This document shows positions 8,475 to 46,087 of a DNA stretch of 47,642 nucleotides, in pieces. The notes under the pieces are model-generated. The model saw nothing but the letters and a program-made list of their open reading frames with translations. It was not told the origin of the DNA and made no database searches. Source of the DNA: Candidatus Iainarchaeum sp. (GTDB lineage Archaea; Iainarchaeota; Iainarchaeia; Iainarchaeales; JAFCCW01); assembly GCA_017609985.1 (NCBI GenBank), contig JAFCCW010000012.1:1-47642 (forward strand), in the 5' to 3' direction. Each line of letters starts with the position of its first letter. The stretch's first letter is position 1. The position numbers were made by a program, and so were the translations under genes.

Positions 8475-8828
8475 TTAAGAGAAAGAAATAAGACTTCCTT
8501 TCTCAAGTTCTTCCGCTGAAACTCCTTCAATGCTTAAACCAACAGTCATTCCTCTTTTTGCAGAGCTTGTTCTATGATATTTGCAATTCAAGTCCTTTAC
8601 GGTAAAACTTTTTCCGTTAAGTTCGCCCTTCATTCCTTTTGAAACCTGTCCTGAGACAATTTCACCGACAACATAAATTTCCGGGTCTCCAAAAAACCTG
8701 CTGACTTTTTTAATGCAAAGCTTGTTTTTTTCCCAAGGATAAATCTGAATGTTGTCCTGAGGAGCAACGATTTCAATTTCTGATTGATTCCCTCTTCCTT
8801 CCCCGAATGTTAATGTAATCAAACTCAT
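8475..8828 (-). CDS. Stand-alone EF-Tu domain-2-like beta-barrel protein
   Basis: A 117-residue protein with no G domain. The stretch VVGEIVSGQVSKGMKGELNG followed by KRGMTVGLSIEGVSAEELEKGSLI follows the pattern of translational GTPase domain 2 (EF-Tu/SelB type), where a V-x-G-x-V-x-x-G motif is followed by an A-x-x-G-x-x-V-G-L turn. The ATG at 8828 has GGAGTGAG upstream, so it is chosen over GTG 8837. It is followed by scpB on the same strand; the open frame upstream of scpB overlaps this gene but has no support. A ribosome- or tRNA-related role is only a guess. Confidence 0.6.
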   Translation of the reverse strand: MSLITLTFGEGRGNQSEIEIVAPQDNIQIYPWEKNKLCIKKVSRFFGDPEIYVVGEIVSGQVSKGMKGELNGKSFTVKDLNCKYHRTSSAKRGMTVGLSIEGVSAEELEKGSLISFS

Positions 8829-34617: not shown

Positions 34618-35526
34618 ATGAATGATTCTTTGAATGCTGAAATTTTAAAGCTTAAGCAAGAAAAAAATGCAGTTATTCTTGCACACAACTATCAATTGCC
34701 TGAAGTGCAGGAAATTGCTGATTTTCTCGGAGACAGTCTAGAGCTGGCAAAAAAAGCAAGCACTGTTGATGCAGAAATTATCGTGCTTTGCGGGGTTGAC
34801 TTTATGGCAGAAACAGCAGCTATTCTGAATCCAGACAAGAAAGTTCTTCTGCCAAGCCTTGATGCAAAATGTCCCATGGCAGCTCAGCTAAAAGCAGAGG
34901 AAATAGTAAAGGCAAAAGAAGAGCATTCAAAAGCAAAAGTAGTTCTTTATGTAAACACTTCTGCGGATTGCAAAGCCTTGGCTGATGCCTGCTGCACTTC
35001 TGCAAACGCTCCGAAAATTGTTGAAGCAATGGATTCAGAAGAAGTAATCTTTGGACCAGACAAAAACCTAGGCTGGTTTGTAAACCAGAGAAGCAGTAAA
35101 AAGATTATAGATATTCCTGCAAGCGGATACTGTTATGCTCACAGAAAAATAATGGGAGAAGAAATAATCGAACAAAAAAATAAGCATCCAGACGCACTTG
35201 TGCTGGCGCATCCAGAATGCAATCCAGAAGTGCAAGAGCTAGCAAACAGAATTGAAAGCACAAGCGGAATGTTGAGAGTGGCAAAAGAAGAATCTGCAAA
35301 CGAATTTATCATCGCAACAGAGAAAGAAATGCTTCACAGGCTGAAAAAGGAAAACCCTACTAAAAAATTCTATGCAGCCTCTGAAAATGCAGTTTGCGGA
35401 GCAATGAAAAAAATTAATTCAGAGAATGTTTTAGAGGCATTGAAAGAAGAAAAAAATGAAGTCAAGATTTCCAAAGAAACAACTGCTCTTGCAAAGAAAG
35501 CAATTGAGAGCATGCTTGAAATCTAA
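34618..35526 (+). CDS. nadA: Quinolinate synthase
   Basis: A 302-residue NadA that condenses iminoaspartate with dihydroxyacetone phosphate using a [4Fe-4S] cluster. It contains AVILAHNYQLPEVQEIADFLGDSLEL, LCGVDFMAETAAIL, CPMAAQL, LVLAHPECNPEVQ and ENAVCGAMKKI. ATG 34618 follows AAGGTG, so the longer frame from 34594 is not used. The last 12 codons and the stop are duplicated immediately downstream. Confidence 0.95.
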   Translation: MNDSLNAEILKLKQEKNAVILAHNYQLPEVQEIADFLGDSLELAKKASTVDAEIIVLCGVDFMAETAAILNPDKKVLLPSLDAKCPMAAQLKAEEIVKAKEEHSKAKVVLYVNTSADCKALADACCTSANAPKIVEAMDSEEVIFGPDKNLGWFVNQRSSKKIIDIPASGYCYAHRKIMGEEIIEQKNKHPDALVLAHPECNPEVQELANRIESTSGMLRVAKEESANEFIIATEKEMLHRLKKENPTKKFYAASENAVCGAMKKINSENVLEALKEEKNEVKISKETTALAKKAIESMLEI

Positions 35527-35576
35527 AAGTCTAGCAAAGAAAGCAATTGAGAGCATGCTTGAAATCTAAAAGTCTA
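35491..35576. repeat. 43-bp perfect tandem duplication of the nadA 3' end
   Basis: Bases 35491-35533 are repeated exactly at 35534-35576. The unit includes the last 11 codons and stop of nadA plus the following bases, and its final CTA is the minus-strand TAG of the nucS remnant in the second copy. It marks the left side of the accessory island. Confidence 0.93.
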
Positions 35577-35745
35577 GTCTTGGAAAAAACTGTCAATCGT
35601 TGCCTGCTTTTTATGAACACCCTTAATTGCGGAACTTGAATTTCCTATTTCAAACTCAAAGCGTGCAAATTCAAGACCATAGTTTTCAAGGAGTTCCAAT
35701 GCATTCTTTCCAATCTCAGGAGCGAGAAGAACCCTTCTGGTTTGG
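35574..35745 (-). pseudogene. nucS: C-terminal remnant of nucS (EndoMS)
   Basis: Minus-strand translation gives QTRRVLLAPEIGKNALELLE, then YGLEFARFEFEIG and a KKQATIDSFFQD end. These align closely with the last 57 residues of the intact NucS at 42316-43074 (QTRGILLAPDIRKNAKEHLE, LGLEFAKIDFEL, KKQETLDKFY). Similarity stops abruptly upstream of QTR, at about 35740. It lacks the catalytic core and cannot be active. The matching N-terminal piece is at 44695-44781. Confidence 0.85.
35598..35615. repeat. Left copy of an att-like imperfect repeat
   Basis: CGTTGCCTGCTTTTTATG inside the nucS 3' remnant resembles CGTTGCCTTTTTATATG at 44675-44691 near the right edge. The two share CGTTGCC and TTTTTAT with a small gap. 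A CTAGTCT also occurs upstream of both (35574 and 44641). It may be a recombination scar or chance. Confidence 0.3.
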
Positions 35746-35906
35746 AGGAAAAGGTTACAAGAAACAACCACTTAAAGCAGCAGAATCATTTCAGGGAATG
35801 GTATTTTGTTGTGACTGACGCAGGAATGAAGAAAGATTATGAAAAGCACGGGAAGGCGCTGACGAGGGCAGAAGTGAAGGAGAAGATAAAAGAATGTTTT
35901 AACTAA
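35742..35906 (+). pseudogene. Unidentified C-terminal gene fragment at the island edge
   Basis: A plus-strand frame, open across the breakpoint, gives HFREWYFVVTDAGMKKDYEK, then HGKALTRAEVKEKIKECFN and a stop at 35904-35906. It reads like the end of a real protein, with balanced composition and a helical tail, but has no credible start. It could be the remains of a mobility gene. I do not recognise the family. Confidence 0.3.
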
Positions 35907-35937
35907 AAGACAATTAAAGAAAGTTAAACCAAAAAGT

Positions 35938-35950
35938 TTATTTTTTAAAG
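35938..35950 (+). promoter_or_regulatory. TATA box of the NACHT gene
   Basis: TTTATTTTTTAAA is centred about 28 bases before the ATG at 35973, matching a leaderless archaeal promoter. Confidence 0.5.
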
Positions 35951-35972
35951 GGTTTCTGTCGCATAGTTAATT

Positions 35973-38321
35973 ATGGCAATTAACATTATGCTGCCTGAAA
36001 TGAATACTGACAGCGAATCAACAAAGAATCTCATCATAAACATTTTAAGCAAGGAATGGCCCTTGTCGGCAAAAAAGGTGCATTATAGGATAAAGAAGAT
36101 TTATGCGATTAACTGCACTTACCAAGCAATACACAAGCAGCTAAGGTTATTAACAAAGAGAAAAGTGCTGGAAAAAGACGGAAAAAATTATCGACTTAGT
36201 ATAGAGTGGTTGGACGCACTCAAAAATTTTAGCGATGAAATTAAGAAAGATTATAACAAGTGTGGTGTAGCCAAGAAAAAGCCAGAGGCTGAAGAAAAGG
36301 CTGATTTGAAATATTTTAAAAAGTACAGGCAAAGCATAGCATCCCTGCTTAGGACAAGGGTTAGAGGCTTTCCAAAGCTGGATTGTGTCAGAACAGAGCT
36401 TGGTGAATCAGGCCAGCGAATTGAGGTTGGCAAATCGGGTTCTGCAGTAAAACAAGTTCTCAAAACAGGCGGAACCTCGCTTTTGCTGGGGCCTTCGGGC
36501 GCGGGAAAAACAACCACTTTAACCCAGATAGGGCTCAAGGCATGCGACTCAAGCAAGATACCAGTATTATTCAATTTGGCGAATTTCAATGAATGTGACT
36601 TGGATGAAATAATCCAGCAAAAAATCTTTGAGGTGTCGGGAGAGCGAATAAGCACTGGTTTTATCGACGAGAACCTCAAAAAAGGGGCTTTTGTTTTTCT
36701 GTTTGACGGCTTGAATGAGATAACTGGCGAACTATATGCTGAAAAGCGTGCTCTTGACAAAGCGGAGTTTATAATAAACCAGATAAATCACTTCGGCTCC
36801 AACAAAAACTATTCAAAAAACCAGTTTGTAATCGCTTGCAGGACAAACGCGGACCCTAAATCAAGTTTATCTGCCACCACATTCATGCTTTGCCCATTCA
36901 CAGAAAACCAGATTAAAAAATACCTCCTTAAGAGAGGCTTAAAAAATTTGTTTGAGCAAATAGCCCAAGACAACAAAATATTCGAGCTCTGCAAAAACCC
37001 GTTAATACTGGATATGACAGTGAATATTTATAATTCCAGCAAAAACCTGTTCCATAACAAAACAAAAATGTACCAAGAGTATTTCACCAACACAATATAT
37101 GGCTGGGAATCAAAAAATATCAAAAAACTGGAACTAATCGCACTAGACTTGGAAGAAGCACTGTCAAAACTGGCTTTTCAGACAATAACCAAAGGAACCC
37201 ATATCTCGATAGAAGAATTCCTTAAGACAATGAGAAAAAACTGCAAACAAATGGGGTTGGATAAGGAAATCGAAAACAAAATCGTTGACGCCGCAATCAG
37301 AAGTAACATAATTCAGCTGGAAGGCACAAAATGCTACTTTCGGCACCACAGCTTCCAAGAATTTTTTGCAGCAAAAGAATTATTCAGCCTTTTCAATGAC
37401 GGCCAAAAGATTAACAAAAGAACAATAGGAGGCATCGCTGGAAAGAAACCGTTCCTAGAACCATTAAAGTTTCTTTCCGGACTGTTGGAGGATTCGACAG
37501 AGCTTGTAAACCTTCTCTCGGGGCACAACCGATTTGTTGCTGGAGAGTGCATTATAACCGCGAAATCAATAGATAAAAAAACCTTCGAAATGAACGTGAA
37601 GAAACTAATTAAAACCGTTGGCGAGAGAAATTTGACAAATGTTTGGTATGCTGTGGATATAATTAACCGCATTGGCTCAAAAGCAACTGCGTTAGTCATG
37701 CAAGAAATAGAAAAAGGAACCGATCCAGACCTGAAAAGAAGAATGTACTGGGTTGCGGGAGGGATATCTGACCCAGGGCTTAACGAATTTTTAGTTAATA
37801 GAGTGATGAAAGAAACGGACGAACATAATATTGTCCACTTTCTATTAGGGTTGCAGGAAAGCTCTTCAAAAGAGCGGGCGTTTATAGCTGAATCCTTTTT
37901 AGGGCACCAAAACCCTGTTGTTGGCGGCGATGCATTCATTGCCTTAAAAAACCATGAACAGGTTAACCAACGGTTATTAAAAAAACACGGTTTTGATTTA
38001 GATAAATTACAGCAGAAACTGGTTTCAAATTTAGATGCAACCGAGTTTTGGGAAAGAATGCATTCAATTTTGGTTTTAGGGAAACTAAAACACGGTGAAG
38101 TTGTCGAAAAGCTGGTTGGATTGCTTGATGACAAAGATACTTCAATTCAATGGTATGCTACATTGGCGTTGTGCCAAATAGGGGACAAAAATACTCTGGA
38201 CTTGCTGCAAAAGGCTTTGGAAACCCAAAGCAAGAACAAAGTTGTTTACCAAAAAGCACTGGAGGCGGTTCAAGGTGGGGTTACAGACAGAAAGGATCTG
38301 GCAAAAATATGGAGTTTCTAA
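35973..38321 (+). CDS. NACHT-type STAND NTPase with N-terminal winged helix and C-terminal HEAT repeats
   Basis: A 782-residue protein. Residues 15-75 form a winged helix (WPLSAKKVHYRIKKIY, TYQAIHKQLRLLTKRKVLEK). Walker A is LLLGPSGAGKTTTLTQIG near 171 and Walker B is VFLFDGLNEITGE near 240, with the Asp-Gly-Leu-Asn-Glu form typical of NACHT. RHHSFQEFFAAKELF near 455 is the conserved end of the NACHT helical region. The last 220 residues are HEAT-like (LVGLLDDKDTSIQWYATLAL). Bacterial proteins of this class are antiviral; a defence role here is inferred from domain plan and context. A winged helix in place of a toxic effector is unusual. Confidence 0.82.
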   Translation: MAINIMLPEMNTDSESTKNLIINILSKEWPLSAKKVHYRIKKIYAINCTYQAIHKQLRLLTKRKVLEKDGKNYRLSIEWLDALKNFSDEIKKDYNKCGVAKKKPEAEEKADLKYFKKYRQSIASLLRTRVRGFPKLDCVRTELGESGQRIEVGKSGSAVKQVLKTGGTSLLLGPSGAGKTTTLTQIGLKACDSSKIPVLFNLANFNECDLDEIIQQKIFEVSGERISTGFIDENLKKGAFVFLFDGLNEITGELYAEKRALDKAEFIINQINHFGSNKNYSKNQFVIACRTNADPKSSLSATTFMLCPFTENQIKKYLLKRGLKNLFEQIAQDNKIFELCKNPLILDMTVNIYNSSKNLFHNKTKMYQEYFTNTIYGWESKNIKKLELIALDLEEALSKLAFQTITKGTHISIEEFLKTMRKNCKQMGLDKEIENKIVDAAIRSNIIQLEGTKCYFRHHSFQEFFAAKELFSLFNDGQKINKRTIGGIAGKKPFLEPLKFLSGLLEDSTELVNLLSGHNRFVAGECIITAKSIDKKTFEMNVKKLIKTVGERNLTNVWYAVDIINRIGSKATALVMQEIEKGTDPDLKRRMYWVAGGISDPGLNEFLVNRVMKETDEHNIVHFLLGLQESSSKERAFIAESFLGHQNPVVGGDAFIALKNHEQVNQRLLKKHGFDLDKLQQKLVSNLDATEFWERMHSILVLGKLKHGEVVEKLVGLLDDKDTSIQWYATLALCQIGDKNTLDLLQKALETQSKNKVVYQKALEAVQGGVTDRKDLAKIWSF

Positions 38322-38701
38322 AACCAGGGATTTCACACAACAAGATTTATTCTGTTTTGAAGGACTTGATTCAGGAAAAGATTGTGCTAAGCACGAACAC
38401 CAACCCGATTAACTATCATGTGAAGTCTCCTTCCAGGACTTTTGAGCGGCTTGTGAACAGGAAGGTTGCAGAGCTTGAAAAGAGGCCCGGGGAATTCGAC
38501 AAAATACTCAACAGCGAACCCCCAGCCAGCGAAAAAGAGTATGTGATAAAGTTCACTGAAAAGCAAACCAAACTTTTTGACATCAAAAACAAAATCAGGG
38601 TCAGTGAATTGCGGGAAGTAAAACAGGTTATAAATCAGCTTAACATCTATGTTAAGGAGCTGGAGCCGAAGAAAGAGTATAATTTTGCTTTTTACAAATA
38701 G
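38309..38701 (+). CDS. Truncated TrmB-like winged-helix protein
   Basis: About 130 residues beginning MEFLKPGISHNKIYSVLKDL and continuing NYHVKSPSRTFERLVNRKVA. This is the recognition-helix half and linker of a TrmB-type regulator; the first two helices are missing. The ATG overlaps the NACHT stop by 13 bases in another frame, so it may be translated by coupling. The C-terminal part (KQTKLFDIKNKIRVSELREV) is not the usual TrmB sugar-binding domain. It may be a degraded gene or a small NACHT partner. Confidence 0.55.
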   Translation: MEFLKPGISHNKIYSVLKDLIQEKIVLSTNTNPINYHVKSPSRTFERLVNRKVAELEKRPGEFDKILNSEPPASEKEYVIKFTEKQTKLFDIKNKIRVSELREVKQVINQLNIYVKELEPKKEYNFAFYK

Positions 38702-38761
38702 TTGAGCAATAAAAGCAGGGGCCATTTTATAATATTGGTTTCTATGTCTTTTTGGATTTTT

Positions 38762-39547
38762 TCAGATGTTGATTGTTGAGATTTTATATCTTTCTTTGAT
38801 TTCTTCTGCGGATTTTGTTTCTTTTCCATTTACAAATAAATATTGTAAAGATAGTTTGTGAAAATTTGGTTTGTGGATTCCTTGTTTAGTTGATTCATTA
38901 GTAACAAACAGCAGAGCACGCTGGTTTTTGCTTAGATATTCCCATCTTTTTTTCATTTTGCCTAAATTGCCCATTGGAGTGTGTGCTGGGTTTAGGAAAA
39001 TGTTGGTATTTTTCAAAATTGAGTCAAATTTTTTATTTAATTCTGTTTCACTGCTTCTAAGTGAAACCCTGTTTCCTTGTTTCTGTTTGTTCTTTAGAAT
39101 ATTGTTTTCTCCGCAAATAATTAGGCGGACTTTTTTGTTGTTGACTTTGAAAAATCGCTCCGATTCAAGTTTGTCTAAATATTCTGGAATTGTTGTTTTG
39201 AGAGAGTGAATATCTTTACTGCTTGTGAAAACCTGTTTTATTTTCTTTTTAATTAGTTTTTTTCCTTTTGCCACATAGAATCCGACATCTGACTTAGGAT
39301 TATCTTTGTTTCTGTGTCCGTCTCCCACTTCAAAGATATATGTTGTGTGTTTATTTTTGTTGTTTGTTAAAACAGAATCAAGTTCTTTTCTGTTGGACAG
39401 AGTCCATCCAGAAAATAAGATTAAATCCACATCAAATACATTGTTCAATATTTCTGTCATAAGCCGCGTGTTATTTTTAGAAATGAAATTAGTTTTGGAT
39501 TTTTTGGAACTAGATTTTGTGATAAATGATACAACAGAACATTTCAT
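38762..39547 (-). CDS. Unknown island protein, possible nitrilase-like fold
   Basis: A 261-residue protein I cannot assign firmly. VDLILFSGWTLSNRKEL, VRLIICGENNIL and NIFLNPAHTPMGNLGKMKKR, then ALLFVTNES, follow the order of carbon-nitrogen hydrolase strands (a Cys after a beta strand, then an LNP segment), but the Glu-Lys-Cys triad is not clearly complete. The TAA of the upstream nuclease gene directly abuts this ATG, so they are one transcription unit. It could be an enzymatic or scaffold partner of the nuclease. Confidence 0.5.
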   Translation of the reverse strand: MKCSVVSFITKSSSKKSKTNFISKNNTRLMTEILNNVFDVDLILFSGWTLSNRKELDSVLTNNKNKHTTYIFEVGDGHRNKDNPKSDVGFYVAKGKKLIKKKIKQVFTSSKDIHSLKTTIPEYLDKLESERFFKVNNKKVRLIICGENNILKNKQKQGNRVSLRSSETELNKKFDSILKNTNIFLNPAHTPMGNLGKMKKRWEYLSKNQRALLFVTNESTKQGIHKPNFHKLSLQYLFVNGKETKSAEEIKERYKISTINI

Positions 39548-40114
39548 TTAGTTTTCCCCCAGCAAGTTTTTGAATTTTTCAACATCCTCGGTTTTTTTTT
39601 GATCTAATTCACACCAGACATAATCTTTGGCAAATAATCGCACAGTAGGTTTTAAGCCCAAGAGAGCCGGCGCAAAATCTTTGAGAGTATCATACCAGGC
39701 TCTTTGTTCATCTCTAAAGGGAGGATCATTGTCTTTTTTATGAATTGATTTGCATAAACTAAGCCATTTTTCTTTATCAAATCCCAGTTTTAAGTGTTCA
39801 GGATATGCATTTAATGCAATATCTCTTTGTTTAGTAAAATGCTGTGATTCATCAAATTCCACTATGAGCTTGTGCTCAACAGCAAAAAAGTCAACTGTAG
39901 AAAGTTTTTTAGCGCGAACAAAATTGTCATACTCCCGATTAGTTTCAAGCAAATCAAAGATTTTTTTTAAATCTGAATAAAATTTGTTGGATTCAAAAGC
40001 ACTTATTTTTGCGGGCAAATTAAGGGAATGTTCTTTCTTAACTTCGCCAAAAATAACACTGAGCAAATCGTATATTCTCTTTTTGCATTCCTTGCATCTT
40101 TCACTATGGCTCAT
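39548..40114 (-). CDS. PD-(D/E)XK-like nuclease with an N-terminal Cys motif
   Basis: A 188-residue protein. STVDFFAVEHKLIVEFDESQ followed by HF has the spacing of PD-(D/E)XK enzymes (Asp, about ten residues, hydrophobic strand with E-x-D, then QH), as in DUF559/Vsr-like nucleases. The N terminus has a CKECKKRIYDLL pair that may bind zinc or form a dimer site. The remainder is helical. It is followed without a gap by the 261-residue protein and preceded by the CARF regulator on the same strand. Confidence 0.65.
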   Translation of the reverse strand: MSHSERCKECKKRIYDLLSVIFGEVKKEHSLNLPAKISAFESNKFYSDLKKIFDLLETNREYDNFVRAKKLSTVDFFAVEHKLIVEFDESQHFTKQRDIALNAYPEHLKLGFDKEKWLSLCKSIHKKDNDPPFRDEQRAWYDTLKDFAPALLGLKPTVRLFAKDYVWCELDQKKTEDVEKFKNLLGEN

Positions 40115-40207
40115 TTGCGACTCCGACCTTGTTTTTATTTAATGTTTCTTCTTATTTTTTCCAACTAATTTCAAATCCGCCTTTTTCATGCTTTTTCCCG
40201 TGTGTTT

Positions 40208-40810
40208 TTACAATCTGGCTATTCTTCCCGCATCGGTCAGTAGCAGCTCGTTTTCCTTGTTTTCTTCTATCAGGCCCCTCACCCTTAATTCTTTTATGTG
40301 CCTGTACAACATTGCTCTGCTTATCTTTAGGTGTTCTGCGAACTTGCTGAGGTTTTTGCTTTCTTCAATGTTTTTAAGGATTTTAAGCTGGCTTTTGTTT
40401 AAATTAAATGATAGAACAGGCAGGTCAAGAATTTGATTTGTTTCTTCAATACAATATAATGCTTTTTTCACCCGATTGGAACGCGCGTATGAACCCAGAA
40501 GCAAACCCATTGATTGAGTTTTTCTGCCAGGGGTAACGTTCAAGTATAGTTCATCTTTATCTGGAATGTCATCAATTAAGATTACACATTCCTTTGCAAT
40601 GCCAACAACATCGTAGAGCCCTACTCTTTTTCGCTTTACTTTAATGGCTTTTCCAAAGCTTGCTTCAATTGTTTTTGCTGCTTTTTTCTGGGTTTTGTCG
40701 GGTTTTTTATCCATAAGCAGGTAAAGTCTTTCAATGCCAAGCTTTGTTACAAGTAGCACGATGGAATTTGTAGAATATGTTGTTGTTATTAGAACGCGGG
40801 GCAAATCCAA
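40208..40810 (-). CDS. CARF-domain winged-helix regulator (Csa3-like)
   Basis: A 200-residue protein. Residues 1-130 look like a CARF domain: the first strand and loop VLITTTYSTNSIVLLVTKLG, and later LYLNVTPGRKTQSMGLLLGS, the second ligand loop. Residues 135-200 form a winged helix (NLSKFAEHLKISRAMLYRHI). The Csa3 family senses cyclic oligoadenylate made by type III CRISPR systems. No CRISPR array or cas gene is in this window, so the ligand source must be elsewhere or different. The start is TTG with GGAGG upstream. Confidence 0.75.
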   Translation of the reverse strand: MDLPRVLITTTYSTNSIVLLVTKLGIERLYLLMDKKPDKTQKKAAKTIEASFGKAIKVKRKRVGLYDVVGIAKECVILIDDIPDKDELYLNVTPGRKTQSMGLLLGSYARSNRVKKALYCIEETNQILDLPVLSFNLNKSQLKILKNIEESKNLSKFAEHLKISRAMLYRHIKELRVRGLIEENKENELLLTDAGRIARL

Positions 40811-40917
40811 ACCACCTCCTGCACTTTACTTATTTGATTGAAATTATTAAACCTCATTTGTACCACTATCACTACAAGTAATCCAGAAAATTTAAATAGT
40901 TAACCTAAAGTGAGCAG

Positions 40918-40937
40918 TGTATCGTTTTTATGATACA
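40918..40937. promoter_or_regulatory. Perfect inverted repeat upstream of the AAA ATPase gene
   Basis: TGTATC (40918-40923) and GATACA (40932-40937) form a perfect dyad with an eight-base spacer. It directly abuts the TATA box of the AAA gene and lies about 110 bases from the CARF gene start, in the spacer the two divergent genes share. It is a good operator candidate for the CARF-HTH protein or another island regulator. Confidence 0.5.
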
Positions 40938-40948
40938 TTTAAATATAT
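40938..40948 (+). promoter_or_regulatory. TATA box of the island AAA ATPase
   Basis: TTAAATATAT lies about 27 bases before ATG 40970, supporting that start over GTG 40952. Any protein bound to the neighbouring dyad would block TBP access. Confidence 0.55.
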
Positions 40949-40969
40949 TTTGTGACAACGGTTTTAGGT

Positions 40970-42118
40970 ATGGATGAAACTGCTTTGACCTTGAGGAACG
41001 TGACAAAAACAAACAAGTTTTGTGAAGTCAAATCTGTTGAGCAACTTATTGGGCTCGCGGGATCGTGTTATGAGTTAGAAGCGAGCATAGCTCTGCTCAA
41101 GAGTAATGGCGAGTTTGAAAAGTGGTTGAAAACAAACAAATTGCATGAATTGGCTAATAACCTTAAGCCGTTTAAGAATCAACCACTGCCTGTTTTTGTT
41201 GAAGCACTTAAGGTTTTTTTGGGTGACCATGGCGGGAAACAGGTTTCGTTTGATTCTCTTACAGGAATTGATGAACTAAAACGCTTTCTGGTAAACCGGT
41301 TTGTAAAACCTAGGCAGTTTAGGGAAAAAGCAAGAGAATTAAGGCAAGAGGTTGAAGATGGTATCATGTTTTATGGCCCGCCAGGTTGTGGAAAGACTAT
41401 GGTAGGATTAGCTCTTGCGAATGAATCGAATAGTTTGCTCATATACCGTTCTGCTGCCGACTTGGAAAAAACACGGTGCAATGCAACCGAAATGCTGCAC
41501 GGTCTTTTCACAATAGCAAGAAAGTCAGCACCTTCAATCCTGTTTTTTGATGAATTTGAATACTTTGGTCAGATGAGAAGCAATGATTCAAGACTTTCGA
41601 TGGCAACTTCGCTGTTTTTGTCTGAGATGGGTGGAAACAAAAAAAACGAGGAAATTCTCGTCATAGGAGCAACCAACTATCCCTGGAGTATTGACCCAGC
41701 ATTACTCAGAACTGGACGATTCAGCCACCTGTTTTATATGGGCCCACCTAATCAAAACCAGCGCAAAGAATTGTTTAAATTTTATTTGAATGACTTACCA
41801 TGCGAAAAGATTGATTTGAATTATTGTGTAAACAATACAAATTTTTATTCCTGCAGCGATATTTCCCAATTGTGCAGGGACGCTGCTTCTTTTGTATGGA
41901 ATGATTTCCTGCAAAATAGTGTTGAGAGAAAAATTGGAACAGAAGACTTGAAGAAAGCTATTAAACGCAGGCCTTCCTCCATAGTCCACTGGTTTGACTT
42001 GTTTAAGGCACATTCGCCCACCACAGAACAACAAATCAGATTTAAAAAGCTTTTTGATGATTTGGAAGACTATAAACTTTTGAGCAATGACACGAAGAAA
42101 AACAGCAACATTTATTAA
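40970..42118 (+). CDS. Cdc48/FtsH-like AAA ATPase
   Basis: A 382-residue single AAA module. SLTGIDELKRFLVNRFVKPR leads into Walker A MFYGPPGCGKTMVGLALANE, Walker B SILFFDEFEYFG, sensor 1 VIGATNYPWSIDPALL and the RTGRFSHLF arginine-finger segment. The first 90 residues are a helical domain with no recognised family (LAGSCYELEASIALLKSNGE). No protease domain is present. In the island it could be a remodelling partner of a defence effector. It is divergent from the CARF operon. Confidence 0.82.
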   Translation: MDETALTLRNVTKTNKFCEVKSVEQLIGLAGSCYELEASIALLKSNGEFEKWLKTNKLHELANNLKPFKNQPLPVFVEALKVFLGDHGGKQVSFDSLTGIDELKRFLVNRFVKPRQFREKARELRQEVEDGIMFYGPPGCGKTMVGLALANESNSLLIYRSAADLEKTRCNATEMLHGLFTIARKSAPSILFFDEFEYFGQMRSNDSRLSMATSLFLSEMGGNKKNEEILVIGATNYPWSIDPALLRTGRFSHLFYMGPPNQNQRKELFKFYLNDLPCEKIDLNYCVNNTNFYSCSDISQLCRDAASFVWNDFLQNSVERKIGTEDLKKAIKRRPSSIVHWFDLFKAHSPTTEQQIRFKKLFDDLEDYKLLSNDTKKNSNIY

Positions 42119-42142
42119 CACCTACAGCATTATATAGTGGCT

Positions 42143-42271
42143 ATGCCTTACAGGAAAGGAGTTACTACAATCCAGTTGAGTTCTGAGACGCGGGAGAAGC
42201 TGAAAGCTCTTGGGAAGAAAGGGGAAACTTACGATGACATCATCCGGGCACTCATGAAGAAGAATAAATAG
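42143..42271 (+). CDS. 42-residue ribbon-helix-helix antitoxin-like protein
   Basis: The peptide MPYRKGVTTIQLSSETREKL continues KALGKKGETYDDIIRALMKK. A beta strand (TTIQLS) followed by two helices with G-x-x-x-E-T-Y-D-D-I-I-R is the VapB-like/RHH pattern common in archaea. No VapC PIN-domain gene follows; the next gene is nucS. It may be an orphan antitoxin or a small DNA-binding regulator. Confidence 0.65.
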   Translation: MPYRKGVTTIQLSSETREKLKALGKKGETYDDIIRALMKKNK

Positions 42272-42315
42272 AATTTTTTCATGTTTGCGCTTTTTGTTTC
42301 TTCTTAAAAGGGGTC

Positions 42316-43074
42316 ATGGAGCAGGCTATAGCCATAGGCAAAATCAAGGACGGAATCTCAAAAAAAGAGCTTGTAACTATTTTTGGCGTGTGCAACGTGG
42401 ACTATCTCGGCAGGGCCGCGAGCAAGCTCCCGAAAGGAAAAAGGCTCATCATGATTAAGGGTGACAACTCTATTAGCATTCACCAGAACAGGCTTGTCAG
42501 GCCCACGAATTACATGATGAACACGCGCATTGCAATAGAAGAACAGGAAAACAATGTTGTGCTCAAAGCAAGGCGCGTAAAGCCGAGAGAAAAGCTCACA
42601 GTGGTGTTTGACAAGATTCATGACGTTCAAACATACGGCATGGAAATCACGAATGACCTTCGGTTAACTGGCTCAGAAAGGGATTTGAACGAGCTTCTCA
42701 TGCAAGACCTCTCGATGATAGAGCCCGGGTTAAAACCTGTTAACCAGCAGGAAAAATTCAGAAAAGGAATAGCAGACATCATAGCTGAAGATTCAAACGG
42801 AAACTATGTAGTAATAGAATTGAAGAGACGGCAGGCAGACTATGCAAGCGTGACACAGTTGAAACGTTATATGAGCCAAGTGGAGAAAATGAAGGGAATT
42901 CAAACAAGAGGAATACTCCTCGCCCCGGACATAAGGAAAAACGCTAAAGAGCACCTCGAAAGTTTGGGTTTGGAGTTCGCAAAAATCGACTTTGAATTAC
43001 TGCCATCGAGCGAAGAAAAAGCGCGAATCAAAGGGCTTCAAAAAAAGCAAGAAACATTAGACAAATTCTATTAA
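42316..43074 (+). CDS. nucS: Intact NucS/EndoMS mismatch endonuclease
   Basis: A complete 252-residue NucS. The N-terminal domain has VTIFGVCNVDYLGRAAS and KGKRLIMIKGDNSISIHQ; the C-terminal nuclease has GIADIIAEDSNGNYVVIELK, then RRQADYASVTQLKRYM, with the catalytic Asp, Glu and Lys. It cuts both strands at mismatches in archaea. It ends KKQETLDKFY, a PCNA-interaction-like tail (Q-x-x-L-D-x-F-Y). It lies inside the island on the strand opposite to the broken resident copy and is clearly diverged from it. Confidence 0.93.
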   Translation: MEQAIAIGKIKDGISKKELVTIFGVCNVDYLGRAASKLPKGKRLIMIKGDNSISIHQNRLVRPTNYMMNTRIAIEEQENNVVLKARRVKPREKLTVVFDKIHDVQTYGMEITNDLRLTGSERDLNELLMQDLSMIEPGLKPVNQQEKFRKGIADIIAEDSNGNYVVIELKRRQADYASVTQLKRYMSQVEKMKGIQTRGILLAPDIRKNAKEHLESLGLEFAKIDFELLPSSEEKARIKGLQKKQETLDKFY

Positions 43075-43108
43075 ACACCTTTTAGATTGGTTAAGTTCAT
43101 ATATTTTT

Positions 43109-43164
43109 TATATAACTTATATTTATAAATGACACGACTTTGTTATATATAACTTATATTTATA
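43109..43164. repeat. Two perfect 19-bp direct repeats upstream of the AbiE pair
   Basis: TATATAACTTATATTTATA occurs at 43109-43127 and 43146-43164, 37 bases apart, with a shorter related GTTATATACTAG at about 43178-43189. AbiEi antitoxins bind repeats upstream of their own genes, so these are candidate autoregulatory operators. They also contain the TATA-like sequences of the promoter. Confidence 0.7.
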
Positions 43165-43199
43165 TACTACTTGTGTTAGTTATATACTAGTGTTATAGC

Positions 43200-43820
43200 A
43201 TGGTTAAAACTAAAACTAAGAAACTTCTCGCATTACTATTGGATGCAGATTATGTTCCTAAAAGCAAGTATGCTTTAGCCAAAAAAGCCGGATGTAGCCC
43301 TACTTGGGTACTAAAATATTTTAAGCTTCTCGAAAACAAAAAAATTGTTAAAGAGATTAAAGTAAAAAATGCTAAGGCCCTATTTGAATTGTTCCATGAG
43401 AAAAGACCCAAGAAACAAATTTACAAAACCTATTCGATAAATGATTCTTCAAAACTAATCGAATCAGTCAAAAGCAGTGGAATGGATTATGCATTCACAA
43501 CCTATGTTGCAGAGAATATCCTGCAAAAACATTTGTTTTTGCACAGAACCGACATCTATGTAAAGAAAGAAAATTTTGAAGCTTGGCATGAAAAGATGAG
43601 CAAAATAGGATTATGTGGAGGCGGAAACGTTAGATTAATCATTTCTGAATACGAAGAGCTTTTTAACAAAAAGCAAGTTAACAGTGAGAATAAAAAATAT
43701 AAAAGTTGGATAGTAAACACGCCTCAGCTGATATCAGACTTGTTTGTAGAAGACGGTCCTGCAAAAGAAGCAGGAGAAATGCTGTTGAAAAAACTTGGGA
43801 AAAAAATAGAGGCAAAATAA
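43200..43820 (+). CDS. AbiEi-type antitoxin / winged-helix protein
   Basis: A 206-residue protein. An N-terminal winged helix (KSKYALAKKAGCSPTWVLKY, FKLLENKKIVKEIKVKNAK) precedes a C-terminal domain with DYAFTTYVAENILQKHLFLH and RLIISEYEELF, resembling AbiEi/COG5340-like antitoxins. It is followed immediately by a nucleotidyltransferase-like toxin gene with no gap. AbiE systems are type IV: the antitoxin represses the operon and counters the toxin without direct binding. The match is by pattern and order. Confidence 0.65.
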   Translation: MVKTKTKKLLALLLDADYVPKSKYALAKKAGCSPTWVLKYFKLLENKKIVKEIKVKNAKALFELFHEKRPKKQIYKTYSINDSSKLIESVKSSGMDYAFTTYVAENILQKHLFLHRTDIYVKKENFEAWHEKMSKIGLCGGGNVRLIISEYEELFNKKQVNSENKKYKSWIVNTPQLISDLFVEDGPAKEAGEMLLKKLGKKIEAK

Positions 43821-44612
43821 ATGTATCTTAAAATAGAGACTCAAACATCCTACGAGTATCTCCAAAAAGTCGTTTCTGTTTTGCAGGAACCTATTTGCAT
43901 TTTGGGTGGCTGGGCAGTTTACCTCACAGTAAACGACAACTATAAAAAAAATGTTGGGAAAGAATATTTAGGTTCAAGAGATATTGATTTAGGGTTTCAT
44001 TTGGACAAAAATGCCAGCGAGAAAGAAATGAAACAATCAAGTTTTTACCTTGCTTTGAAGACATTAGAAAAAGACGGCTTTGAGTTAACTTCTTTCAGAC
44101 TTGTCAAACATCTTGACCGAGAAACAGGCAAAGTCCTGTCCCAAGAAGAATATGTAAAAAAAGATCAATTTGATTTAATAGAAATGTATGTTGATCTCAT
44201 AGTAGACAACCTTCCAAACGGGTTCAAGAAAACTTTCAAAATGAACCTAATAGACGAAACATTATTAGCACCTGTTTTTGAAAATCCAAAAAACCACATC
44301 ACCTTAACCGAATTCAAGAAAAAACTTATCCTCCCAAAACCAAGCTTGCTATTAGCCACAAAACTCAAGTCCCTGCCTGGAAGAGACAAAGAACACAAAA
44401 GACAAAAAGACATCTACGACATAGCCGCACTATTACTGTACGCTCCAAAAAGAATAGATGGAAGCGAATTGAAACAGTTCCTGCCCACAAAATCATTAAA
44501 ATCCATCAAACAAATAAACGACAAAGAAATAGAAAAAACAGAATCCAGCCTAGGTCTACAAAAAAATCAATTCAAAACAGCAGTACTTGCACTCAAAAAA
44601 GAAATTGAATAA
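43821..44612 (+). CDS. AbiEii-like nucleotidyltransferase toxin
   Basis: A 263-residue protein. ICILGGWAVYLTVNDNYKKN followed by GSRDIDLGFHLDKN is the GG-x-A/V and D-x-D motif of minimal nucleotidyltransferases. A third acidic residue is likely in DLIEMYVDLIVD. LLATKLKSLPGRDKEHKRQK followed by DIYDIAALL is the AbiEii/DUF1814-type C-terminal motif (K-x-x-D-x-x-D). MenT and AbiEii relatives add nucleotides to tRNA acceptors. It starts directly after the antitoxin stop. Confidence 0.75.
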   Translation: MYLKIETQTSYEYLQKVVSVLQEPICILGGWAVYLTVNDNYKKNVGKEYLGSRDIDLGFHLDKNASEKEMKQSSFYLALKTLEKDGFELTSFRLVKHLDRETGKVLSQEEYVKKDQFDLIEMYVDLIVDNLPNGFKKTFKMNLIDETLLAPVFENPKNHITLTEFKKKLILPKPSLLLATKLKSLPGRDKEHKRQKDIYDIAALLLYAPKRIDGSELKQFLPTKSLKSIKQINDKEIEKTESSLGLQKNQFKTAVLALKKEIE

Positions 44613-44674
44613 CCAAAAAACAACACATTTCTAGGAACTGCTAGTCTATCTAACAGCGCACATTCCCATCTAAC

Positions 44675-44691
44675 CGTTGCCTTTTTATATG
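44675..44691. repeat. Right copy of an att-like imperfect repeat
   Basis: CGTTGCCTTTTTATATG resembles CGTTGCCTGCTTTTTATG at 35598-35615 and sits directly beside the point where the nucS N-terminal remnant ends. The direction is the same as the left copy. It could equally be a scrap of the nucS 3' end. Confidence 0.3.
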
Positions 44692-44694
44692 TTA

Positions 44695-44781
44695 TTCCAC
44701 ATGGCAGCTGCCAACAATGCACAGCAGGTGTTTCCTGTGAATAGCCTGCTCTATTTTTTCCTTTGCCTGCTCCAGCTCATG
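44695..44781 (-). pseudogene. nucS: N-terminal remnant of nucS (EndoMS)
   Basis: Minus-strand translation gives ELEQAKEKIEQAIHRKHLLC followed by IVGSCHVE and a stop at 44692-44694. This matches the NucS N terminus, where a helix is followed by a K-x-L-x-x-I-x-G-x-C-x-V-E/D-Y strand, as in the intact copy (KKELVTIFGVCNVDY). The only ATG (44778-44780) is one base out of frame, consistent with a single-base loss just after the start codon. It lies about 45 bases downstream of the enolase stop. Confidence 0.75.
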
Positions 44782-44824: not shown

Positions 44825-46087
44825 CTAATCGAAAACCGACTCGCCCGCAAACTTGCCTGCTTTTTCTTCAATGCGAAGAAGCTGGTTGTATTTTGCGTTT
44901 CGCTCACTCCTCGCAGGAGCACCGAACTTGCTCTGGCCAGTGGAGAGACCAACAACAACATCTGCAATCAAAGAGTCTTCGGTTTCACCAGAACGATGGC
45001 TTACAACAACAGTCCAGTCATTATCAAAAGCAAGCTTTGCTGCATTGATTGATTCAGTGATTGAACCAATCTGGTTTATCTTGAGCAAGAGAGAATTGCA
45101 TGCTTTCTCATCAATTGCCTTCTTGATATACTTTGTGTTTGTTACAAGCAAGTCATCGCCGACTATTTGGACTTTGTTTCCAATTTTTTCAGTAAGCATT
45201 GCCCAGCCCTCCCAGTCGTCTTCAGCCATTCCATCTTCAAGGGAAACAATTGGATACTTGTCAATCAGCTCTGCATAAAAGTCAACAAGTTCTCCGCTGG
45301 AATACTCTTTTCCATAAAGCTTGTATTTTCCATCAGCATAGAATTCAGATGCTGCAGAATCTATTACAAAGGAAATCTTGCCTTCATAACCTGCTTTCCT
45401 AACCGCCTGAAGCATCAACTCCAAGCGTTCCTCTGTGTTTTTTACTGGAGGAACAAAACCGCCTTCGTCTCCAATGAGTGTAGCAGAAGCACCAAATTTT
45501 TTTTTCAGAATTGACTTCAAAGCATGATAGGATTCTGTTCCTGCTTGAAGAGCTTCTGAAAAAGAATCAAAATTCATTGGAAAAAGCATCTGTTCCTGAA
45601 TGTCTTCTTCAAGGCCAGCGTGCCTTCCACCATTCATTACGTTAAGCTGGGGAACAGGAAGCTTGAAATCAGAAATTCCAGCAAGACCTCCAATGTATTC
45701 ATACAGGTCCTTGCCTGCTTCAACAGAACCAGCTCTGCAAACAGCCATGCTGACGGCAAGAATTGCGTTTGCTCCAAGAACAGACTTGTTTTCTGTGCCA
45801 TCAAGCTCAATCATTGCGTTATCAATTTCTGCCTGTTGCAAAACATCCATTCCGTTAACTGCTTCGGCTATCTTACTATTTACATTTTCAACTGCTTTGT
45901 GAACTGCCTTACCTCCAAATTCAGAGCCACCATCTCTCATCTCAAGAGCTTCTCTTGAACCAGTGCTTGCTCCGCTTGGAACAATTCCAAAAAATTTGTG
46001 TCCGTTAACTGATAGTTCTGCTTCAACAGTAGGGTTTCCCCTGCTGTCAAGAACCTGTCTTGCTTTAATGTTTTCAATTTCTGTCAT
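44825..46087 (-). CDS. eno: Enolase
   Basis: A 420-residue enolase that interconverts 2-phosphoglycerate and phosphoenolpyruvate. It starts MTEIENIKARQVLDSRGNPT and has FGIVPSGASTGSREALEMRD, LIGDEGGFVPP, YPIVSLEDGMAEDDWEGW, VQIVGDDLLVTN, LLLKINQIGSITE and VVVSHRSGETEDS, covering the metal and catalytic residues. It is divergent from prs. The remnant nucS lies directly downstream, so the two were probably co-transcribed before the island arrived. Confidence 0.97.
   Translation of the reverse strand: MTEIENIKARQVLDSRGNPTVEAELSVNGHKFFGIVPSGASTGSREALEMRDGGSEFGGKAVHKAVENVNSKIAEAVNGMDVLQQAEIDNAMIELDGTENKSVLGANAILAVSMAVCRAGSVEAGKDLYEYIGGLAGISDFKLPVPQLNVMNGGRHAGLEEDIQEQMLFPMNFDSFSEALQAGTESYHALKSILKKKFGASATLIGDEGGFVPPVKNTEERLELMLQAVRKAGYEGKISFVIDSAASEFYADGKYKLYGKEYSSGELVDFYAELIDKYPIVSLEDGMAEDDWEGWAMLTEKIGNKVQIVGDDLLVTNTKYIKKAIDEKACNSLLLKINQIGSITESINAAKLAFDNDWTVVVSHRSGETEDSLIADVVVGLSTGQSKFGAPARSERNAKYNQLLRIEEKAGKFAGESVFD

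Follow-up and report, generated by a model that had tools for sequence, protein, structure and literature searches.

A probable decayed integrative element in the mismatch-repair gene nucS of a Diapherotrites archaeon, with a divergent nucS carried inside it

Introduction

Why would an archaeal genome hold a complete nucS, an archaeal gene of non-canonical mismatch repair, between two pieces of another nucS? The question is raised by a stretch of 47,642 nucleotides (the window), which forms contig C22 of a 1.16-Mb MAG of 86.6% completeness and 3% contamination. The named relatives of its NucS come from Diapherotrites / Ca. Iainarchaeum MAGs, and all genomes compared here are MAGs. Reading from nadA to eno, the locus consists of two minus-strand nucS pieces, C-terminal first and N-terminal second, and between them ~9 kb of other genes, among which is a complete plus-strand nucS:

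34618–35526, plus strand: nadA, left flank
35574–35747, minus strand: resident nucS remnant, C-terminal end, codons ~195–249 (tblastn E 1.5e-11; host-type profile E 4.2e-19; host-type loop FEIGN)
42316–43074, plus strand: carried intact nucS of the mobile clade (PF21003, PF01939, NF003270, tree and structure matches)
44692–44780, minus strand: resident nucS remnant, codons 1–29/30, probably frameshifted at codon 2 (host-type profile E 8.3e-5)
44825–46087, minus strand: eno, right flank

Results

Resident and carried nucS

The minus-strand nucS pieces at both ends of the island, first noticed in a sequence-only reading of the window, were recovered by a host-type nucS profile, the C-terminal one by tblastn as well, and chance does not account for them, as a second genome, G021, has exactly the same N-side breakpoint. 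The C-terminal remnant is 58% identical to the island nucS by tblastn, and the N-terminal remnant reads MELEQAKEKIEQAIHRKHLLCIVGSCHVE if one G is allowed to be missing after the ATG; the MELEQA of relatives suggests that this base was lost, shifting the frame at codon 2. Some 165 central codons (~30–194) are missing between the remnants, in agreement with the count given by that reading. The left break, at codon 195, is unique to the window, and beside it a 43-bp tandem duplication of the nadA 3' end (35487–35572, 98% identical) adjoins the C-terminal remnant.

The carried gene encodes both NucS domains, N-terminal PH-like and C-terminal nuclease, at scores above the curated cut-offs (PF21003, E 1e-21, 77.1 bits against 23.9; PF01939, E 2.3e-24, 86.2 bits against 24; NCBIfam NF003270, 222.2 bits against 216). 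Its product matches EndoMS 5gke (E 9e-46) and NucS 2vld (E 1.7e-42) in the PDB, and D154, E168 and K170, which we take to be nuclease motif residues, align to both structures and are invariant in alignment A1. The carried NucS is probably active and compensating. A search by tblastn and profile found no further nucS in the window genome, in an assembly that is 86.6% complete.

Two types of NucS can be told apart in these genomes. Host-type proteins have CxVEYWGRA and a short loop, FEIGN-P-KAKIKG, and island-type proteins have CxVDYxGRA and a loop ~3 residues longer. Both remnants are host type by loop length and VE signature, and the intact window copy is island type. In the NucS tree the intact copy groups with copies from f8 (three genera), f6 and f14 (support 97), in a clade that is sister to all f15 copies (support 100). 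A tree had been proposed as a check on the sequence-only reading, and it placed the remnant outside the clade of the intact copy, the remnants being of the common host type of the phylum. The full NucS of clearly different sequence described in that reading is real, and falls in another clade that appears to have spread laterally.

Most relatives have nucS beside eno and/or nadA. The resident nucS of the window is codirectional with eno, which differs from all host-type relatives, as no relative compared has a host-type nucS in the remnants' orientation relative to eno. This orientation implies some further rearrangement at the locus. GC content does not distinguish the island (0.372) from its host (range 0.371–0.405), and a search of the window for repeats at the island ends gave nothing convincing.

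A probable attachment site in nucS

The host-type nucS profile, run on 87 genomes, picked up nine orphan 5' ends of the gene, spread over eight of them (the window genome, G021, G065, G066, G023, G025, G028 and, with two, G057), all of which end at codons 29–31; the one in G028 is a weak match (E 0.09). The window and G021 belong to different families and share a base-identical junction, GTGGAATA followed by AYATATA. Two features of the window lie at this junction:

44693–44706, minus strand: putative attachment-site core TGCCATGTGGAATA, resident nucS codons 26–30 (breakpoint identical in G021; homologous to the core duplicated in G065)
44645–44691, minus strand: probable element end (att arm), a degenerate relative of CATWTAAAATAGTNNCTGTTA (22–27 of 45–47 bases in common with other arms, shuffle p ≤ 0.0018)

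In G023, G057 and G066 the orphan is followed by an exact copy of the arm CATWTAAAATAGTNNCTGTTA, and a fourth exact copy, in inverted orientation, lies at the opposite end of the G065 element. The 87 genomes contain no other exact copy, and each of the four sits at a nucS breakpoint. Greater divergence is seen in the arms of G025 and G021 and in the N-side arm of G065. A C-terminal nucS fragment in G066 (contig C150) was discarded as a contig-edge cut.

The best-preserved element is that of G065, which spans two contigs with the gap between them unseen. Near the end of contig C2, nucS codons 1–30 are followed by 50 bp, a tyrosine integrase (PF00589, E 1.4e-21) and a RecG-C-like protein; contig C31 carries Shedu, HsdM, a TrmB-HTH protein, a HEPN-like protein, DUF7557, a complete island-type nucS, the inverted arm and the resident nucS from codon 25 to stop. 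In the sister genome G045 the same nucS locus is uninterrupted, and 18 bp of it (bases 1077–1094) are present at both G065 junctions. On this comparison, G065 looks like a typical product of site-specific integration in which a core of 18 bp has been duplicated. Both parts of the resident gene are still there, as are the core repeats, so precise excision would be expected to restore the gene. No relatives of the G065 integrase were found among viral contigs, nor were relatives of the mobile-clade NucS. Contig C31 (locus L138) also repeats a short part of the nucS 3' end (8531–8579, 82% over 49 nt, E 2e-7) ~2 kb downstream of the truncated nucS, possibly the trace of a further event at that end of the gene.

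The recurrence of orphan ends, together with the split of G065 relative to G045 and its 18-bp duplication, indicates that nucS codons 25–31 are a recurrent attachment site for integrative elements in Diapherotrites. The window has the same N-side breakpoint and a related arm, but a core direct repeat at both ends is absent, only the N-side end being present, and the island contains no integrase gene. It is on the evidence of its relatives, therefore, that we class the island as what is left of an integrative element after decay. Because the breakpoint of the N-terminal piece recurs in other genomes, the broken gene is an integration-site scar with a deletion of its middle.

Elements in other relatives

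Elements at this site differ in what they bring. In G023 the orphan 5' end is 72–83% identical to congeners, and the intact nucS is 55–62% identical to them over its first 30 codons and 84–86% over the remainder, indicating a gene-restoring element that supplies a new nucS 5' end; this is the clearest such case. The layout is the same in G028, where nothing but an AbiE pair separates orphan from gene, but the 5'-end comparison is not decisive in this genome. Its locus (L078, contig C7, 7658–9692) packs the orphan 5' end, the AbiEi/AbiEii pair and the intact nucS into 2 kb, lacks an integrase and resembles a very small cassette-like insertion of ~1.9 kb. Two orphan 5' ends stand ~950 bp apart in G057 (L265, contig C73, 2551–3595), with an HVO_A0114-type gene between them and an AbiEi/AbiEii pair adjoining, which suggests successive insertions at one site. 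By the host-type profile, G003, G016 and G042 (completeness 92–94%) are without a full-length nucS, and the gene seems to have been lost in parts of the order.

The element in G021, cut at the contig edge, brings a whole nucS, as those of G065 and the window do. The nucS of the window is 74% identical to that of the G065 element, and in both G065 and G021 no other gene lies between the carried nucS and the element end. The carried gene points away from the N-side junction in G065 and towards it in G021 and the window. A rule that the foreign nucS is always inverted relative to the resident was dropped, since G065 breaks it and there are not enough cases. We also rejected the idea that the foreign nucS has a mutated core for self-immunity: it has 3–4 mismatches to the core, yet the host-type genes of G013 and G028 show 3–5.

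Cargo of the island

The remaining genes of the island are as follows:

35748–35906, plus strand: 3' end of a reading frame (..WYFVVTDAGMKKDYEKHGKALTRAEVKEKIKECFN) at the island left edge, without a match among relatives' loci
35973–38321, plus strand: NACHT NTPase with HEAT repeats, defence-type (PF05729 E 4.5e-7; PF13646 E 1.3e-11)
38339–38701, plus strand: N-terminally truncated TrmB-like HTH protein, 59% identical to the TrmB-HTH of the G065 element
38762–39547, minus strand: 261-aa protein, no match in Pfam, NCBIfam or PADLOC
39548–40114, minus strand: 188-aa protein, DUF7255/DUF559-like (PF23913 E 9.3e-7)
40208–40810, minus strand: Csa3-like CARF-HTH regulator (TIGR01884 73.9 bits, cut-off 60.2; PADLOC CARF3 E 1.6e-60)
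40952–42118, plus strand: AAA ATPase with partial IetA similarity (PF00004 E 6e-28; PADLOC IetA E 1.7e-22)
43200–43820, plus strand: 206-aa HTH protein, first of a pair (weak HTH match only)
43821–44612, plus strand: 263-aa nucleotidyltransferase, weakly AbiEii-like (PF08843 E 0.022, under cut-off; GGW..DID motif by eye)

The left att end is missing at the island left edge. The AAA ATPase scores far under the curated IetA cut-off. The 188-aa protein may be nuclease-like, by family resemblance, and with its 261-aa neighbour (38762–40114) looks like an uncharacterised, possibly nuclease-containing pair. Assignment of the 263-aa protein as a true AbiEii is unsupported, as its PF08843 match is under the gathering score and BLAST found no similarity to the AbiEii of G057. 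We read the cargo as probably defence-type.

Discussion

The best explanation of the locus, to which we give a probability of roughly 0.84, is that an integrative element inserted site-specifically in the resident nucS and has since decayed to the present island, and that such elements give their hosts a new 5' end or a full nucS. Set against it are the single att end and missing integrase of the island, the orientation of the resident gene to eno, the differing orientation of the carried nucS between G065 and the other two genomes, and the contig breaks of G065 and G021 in a comparison made up of MAGs. An element of this kind would insert by site-specific recombination at resident codons 25–31, at a core of about TGYTATGTKGARTR, and would carry mostly defence or toxin-antitoxin genes. 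Because insertion cuts a mismatch-repair gene, it would also bring nucS sequence, either a 5' end that fuses to the resident gene, as in G023, or a complete divergent nucS, as in the window, G065 and G021. The window element, which probably used the same integrase type as G065, would later have lost its C-side att end, any integrase and resident codons ~30–194, an order of decay that we infer. Through these losses it would now be locked in, with excision and restoration of nucS no longer possible and the carried nucS the only copy found.

The sequence-only reading had an incoming element break the resident nucS and supply a replacement, and this much stands: the remnants are host type and lie outside the clade of the intact copy (support 100). 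Two findings that it had named as telling against it did not appear, since nucS does lie beside eno and/or nadA in most relatives and both remnants belong to one lineage. Its further proposal of an addiction-like strategy, in which the element carries nucS so that its own loss becomes lethal or mutagenic, does not fit G065, where excision should restore the gene. As addiction would have it, the assembly retains a single nucS and some of the cargo may form toxin-antitoxin pairs, but other elements at the site restore the nucS 5' end, and several relatives that are at least 90% complete have no full nucS, so that its loss need not be lethal; we regard such a strategy as unlikely. Because G065 keeps both resident parts, the carried nucS seems to offset the damage done by integration into nucS. 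Losing the island is costly in the window only through decay of the resident gene, if NucS matters to the organism, and dependence on the carried copy more plausibly reflects compensation followed by decay than a strategy built into the element.

Hidden paralogy would have two adjacent ancestral nucS genes undergo patchy differential loss, with a rearrangement that broke one copy in the window. Island-type nucS does occupy the resident locus in G055, G063, G026 and G033, where no fragment of the resident gene is left, and f15 carries the island type only. However, mobile-clade nucS is spread over f1, f6, f8 and f14 in the NucS tree, at NucS distances about half of what species distances predict. 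Measured against a species tree from concatenated EF-2 and RNA polymerase parts, the median NucS/species distance ratio is 0.78 for mobile-clade pairs and 1.34 for host-type pairs, which, as a ratio comparison and not a formal test, favours lateral spread over ancient paralogy. (A placement of the window genome near f6/f15 by EF-2 alone was abandoned, as the concatenation put it outside the supported f14-f6-f15 group.) Paralogy also leaves aside that G065 is broken exactly at the att site, with an integrase, where its sister G045 has one uninterrupted copy, and that the window copy sits inside the other nucS gene. We consider it quite improbable, and read G055, G063 and G026/G033 as a likely end stage of apparently complete replacement.

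Illegitimate recombination, with a chance insertion and deletion, a foreign nucS selected as rescue and a coincidental breakpoint, draws on the lack of an integrase and second att end in the window and on its unique break at codon 195. It is strongly disfavoured by the recurrence of the breakpoint, given the base-identical N-side junction in G021, the related arm and eight further orphans with the same end, and seems very improbable. An assembly chimera of the metagenome contig, conceivable in a MAG with some contamination, is scarcely credible when the two remnants lie in colinear order and share strand and lineage, the N-side junction turns up again in a MAG unrelated to this one and the island GC lies inside the host range.

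The integrative element that we favour has parallels in bacteria. The recA mobile element (RME) of Vibrio cholerae S24 is an island in recA with a divergent recA of its own, and the resident gene is restored when the island excises (PMC4405046). Like the RME, the elements described here use a specific site in a DNA-repair gene and carry a divergent, functional-looking foreign copy, and the window likewise has a broken resident target and a complete divergent copy; excision cannot restore the resident gene there, since codons ~30–194 are gone. The RME differs in its bacterial host, its recA target, its DNA-repair cargo, its inverted-repeat ends and its other recombination genes, whereas the present case has archaeal nucS, defence-type cargo, a tyrosine integrase in G065 and a replacement in which the resident gene is eventually erased. 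In Streptococcus pyogenes, SpyCI chromosomal islands use the mutL 5' end as attachment site (PMC3430984). There too the 5' end of a mismatch-repair gene is targeted, and integrase decay fixes the island while function is rescued otherwise, but SpyCI silences mutL, switches with growth and carries no mutL copy. Islands specific to dusA replace the 5' end of their target, and the old end stays as a remnant (PMC4482086). As tyrosine-recombinase islands at a conserved site near the gene 5' end, with that end replaced, they match the G023 type, whereas the target and integrase family are others and the description covers replacement of a 5' end and not carriage of a whole gene. The archaeal nucS case thus appears to combine features of all three. 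Our literature search, outside which most subscription journals lay, found no earlier description of nucS as an attachment site.

A broader scenario is possible but doubtful. Here nucS would be an integron-like anchor in Diapherotrites, at which defence or toxin-antitoxin cassettes, some without their own integrase, insert successively at codon 30, as the G028 cassette and the paired orphan ends of G057 would exemplify; insertion and excision would toggle mismatch repair, and a mobile nucS lineage would travel on elements to escape the cost and finally displace the resident gene across families. Such toggling would be an archaeal counterpart of the SpyCI mutator switch.

The analysis points to a probable attachment site within nucS, a mismatch-repair gene of archaea, and supplies an integrase, a core and an arm as testable parts. 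It also arranges the replacement of a core repair gene in a stepwise series, from near-intact (G065) through decayed (window, G021) to apparently complete (G055, G063, G026/G033). These findings would tie mismatch repair, mobile elements and defence islands together in a DPANN phylum, and offer a concrete mechanism for the patchy phylogeny of NucS.
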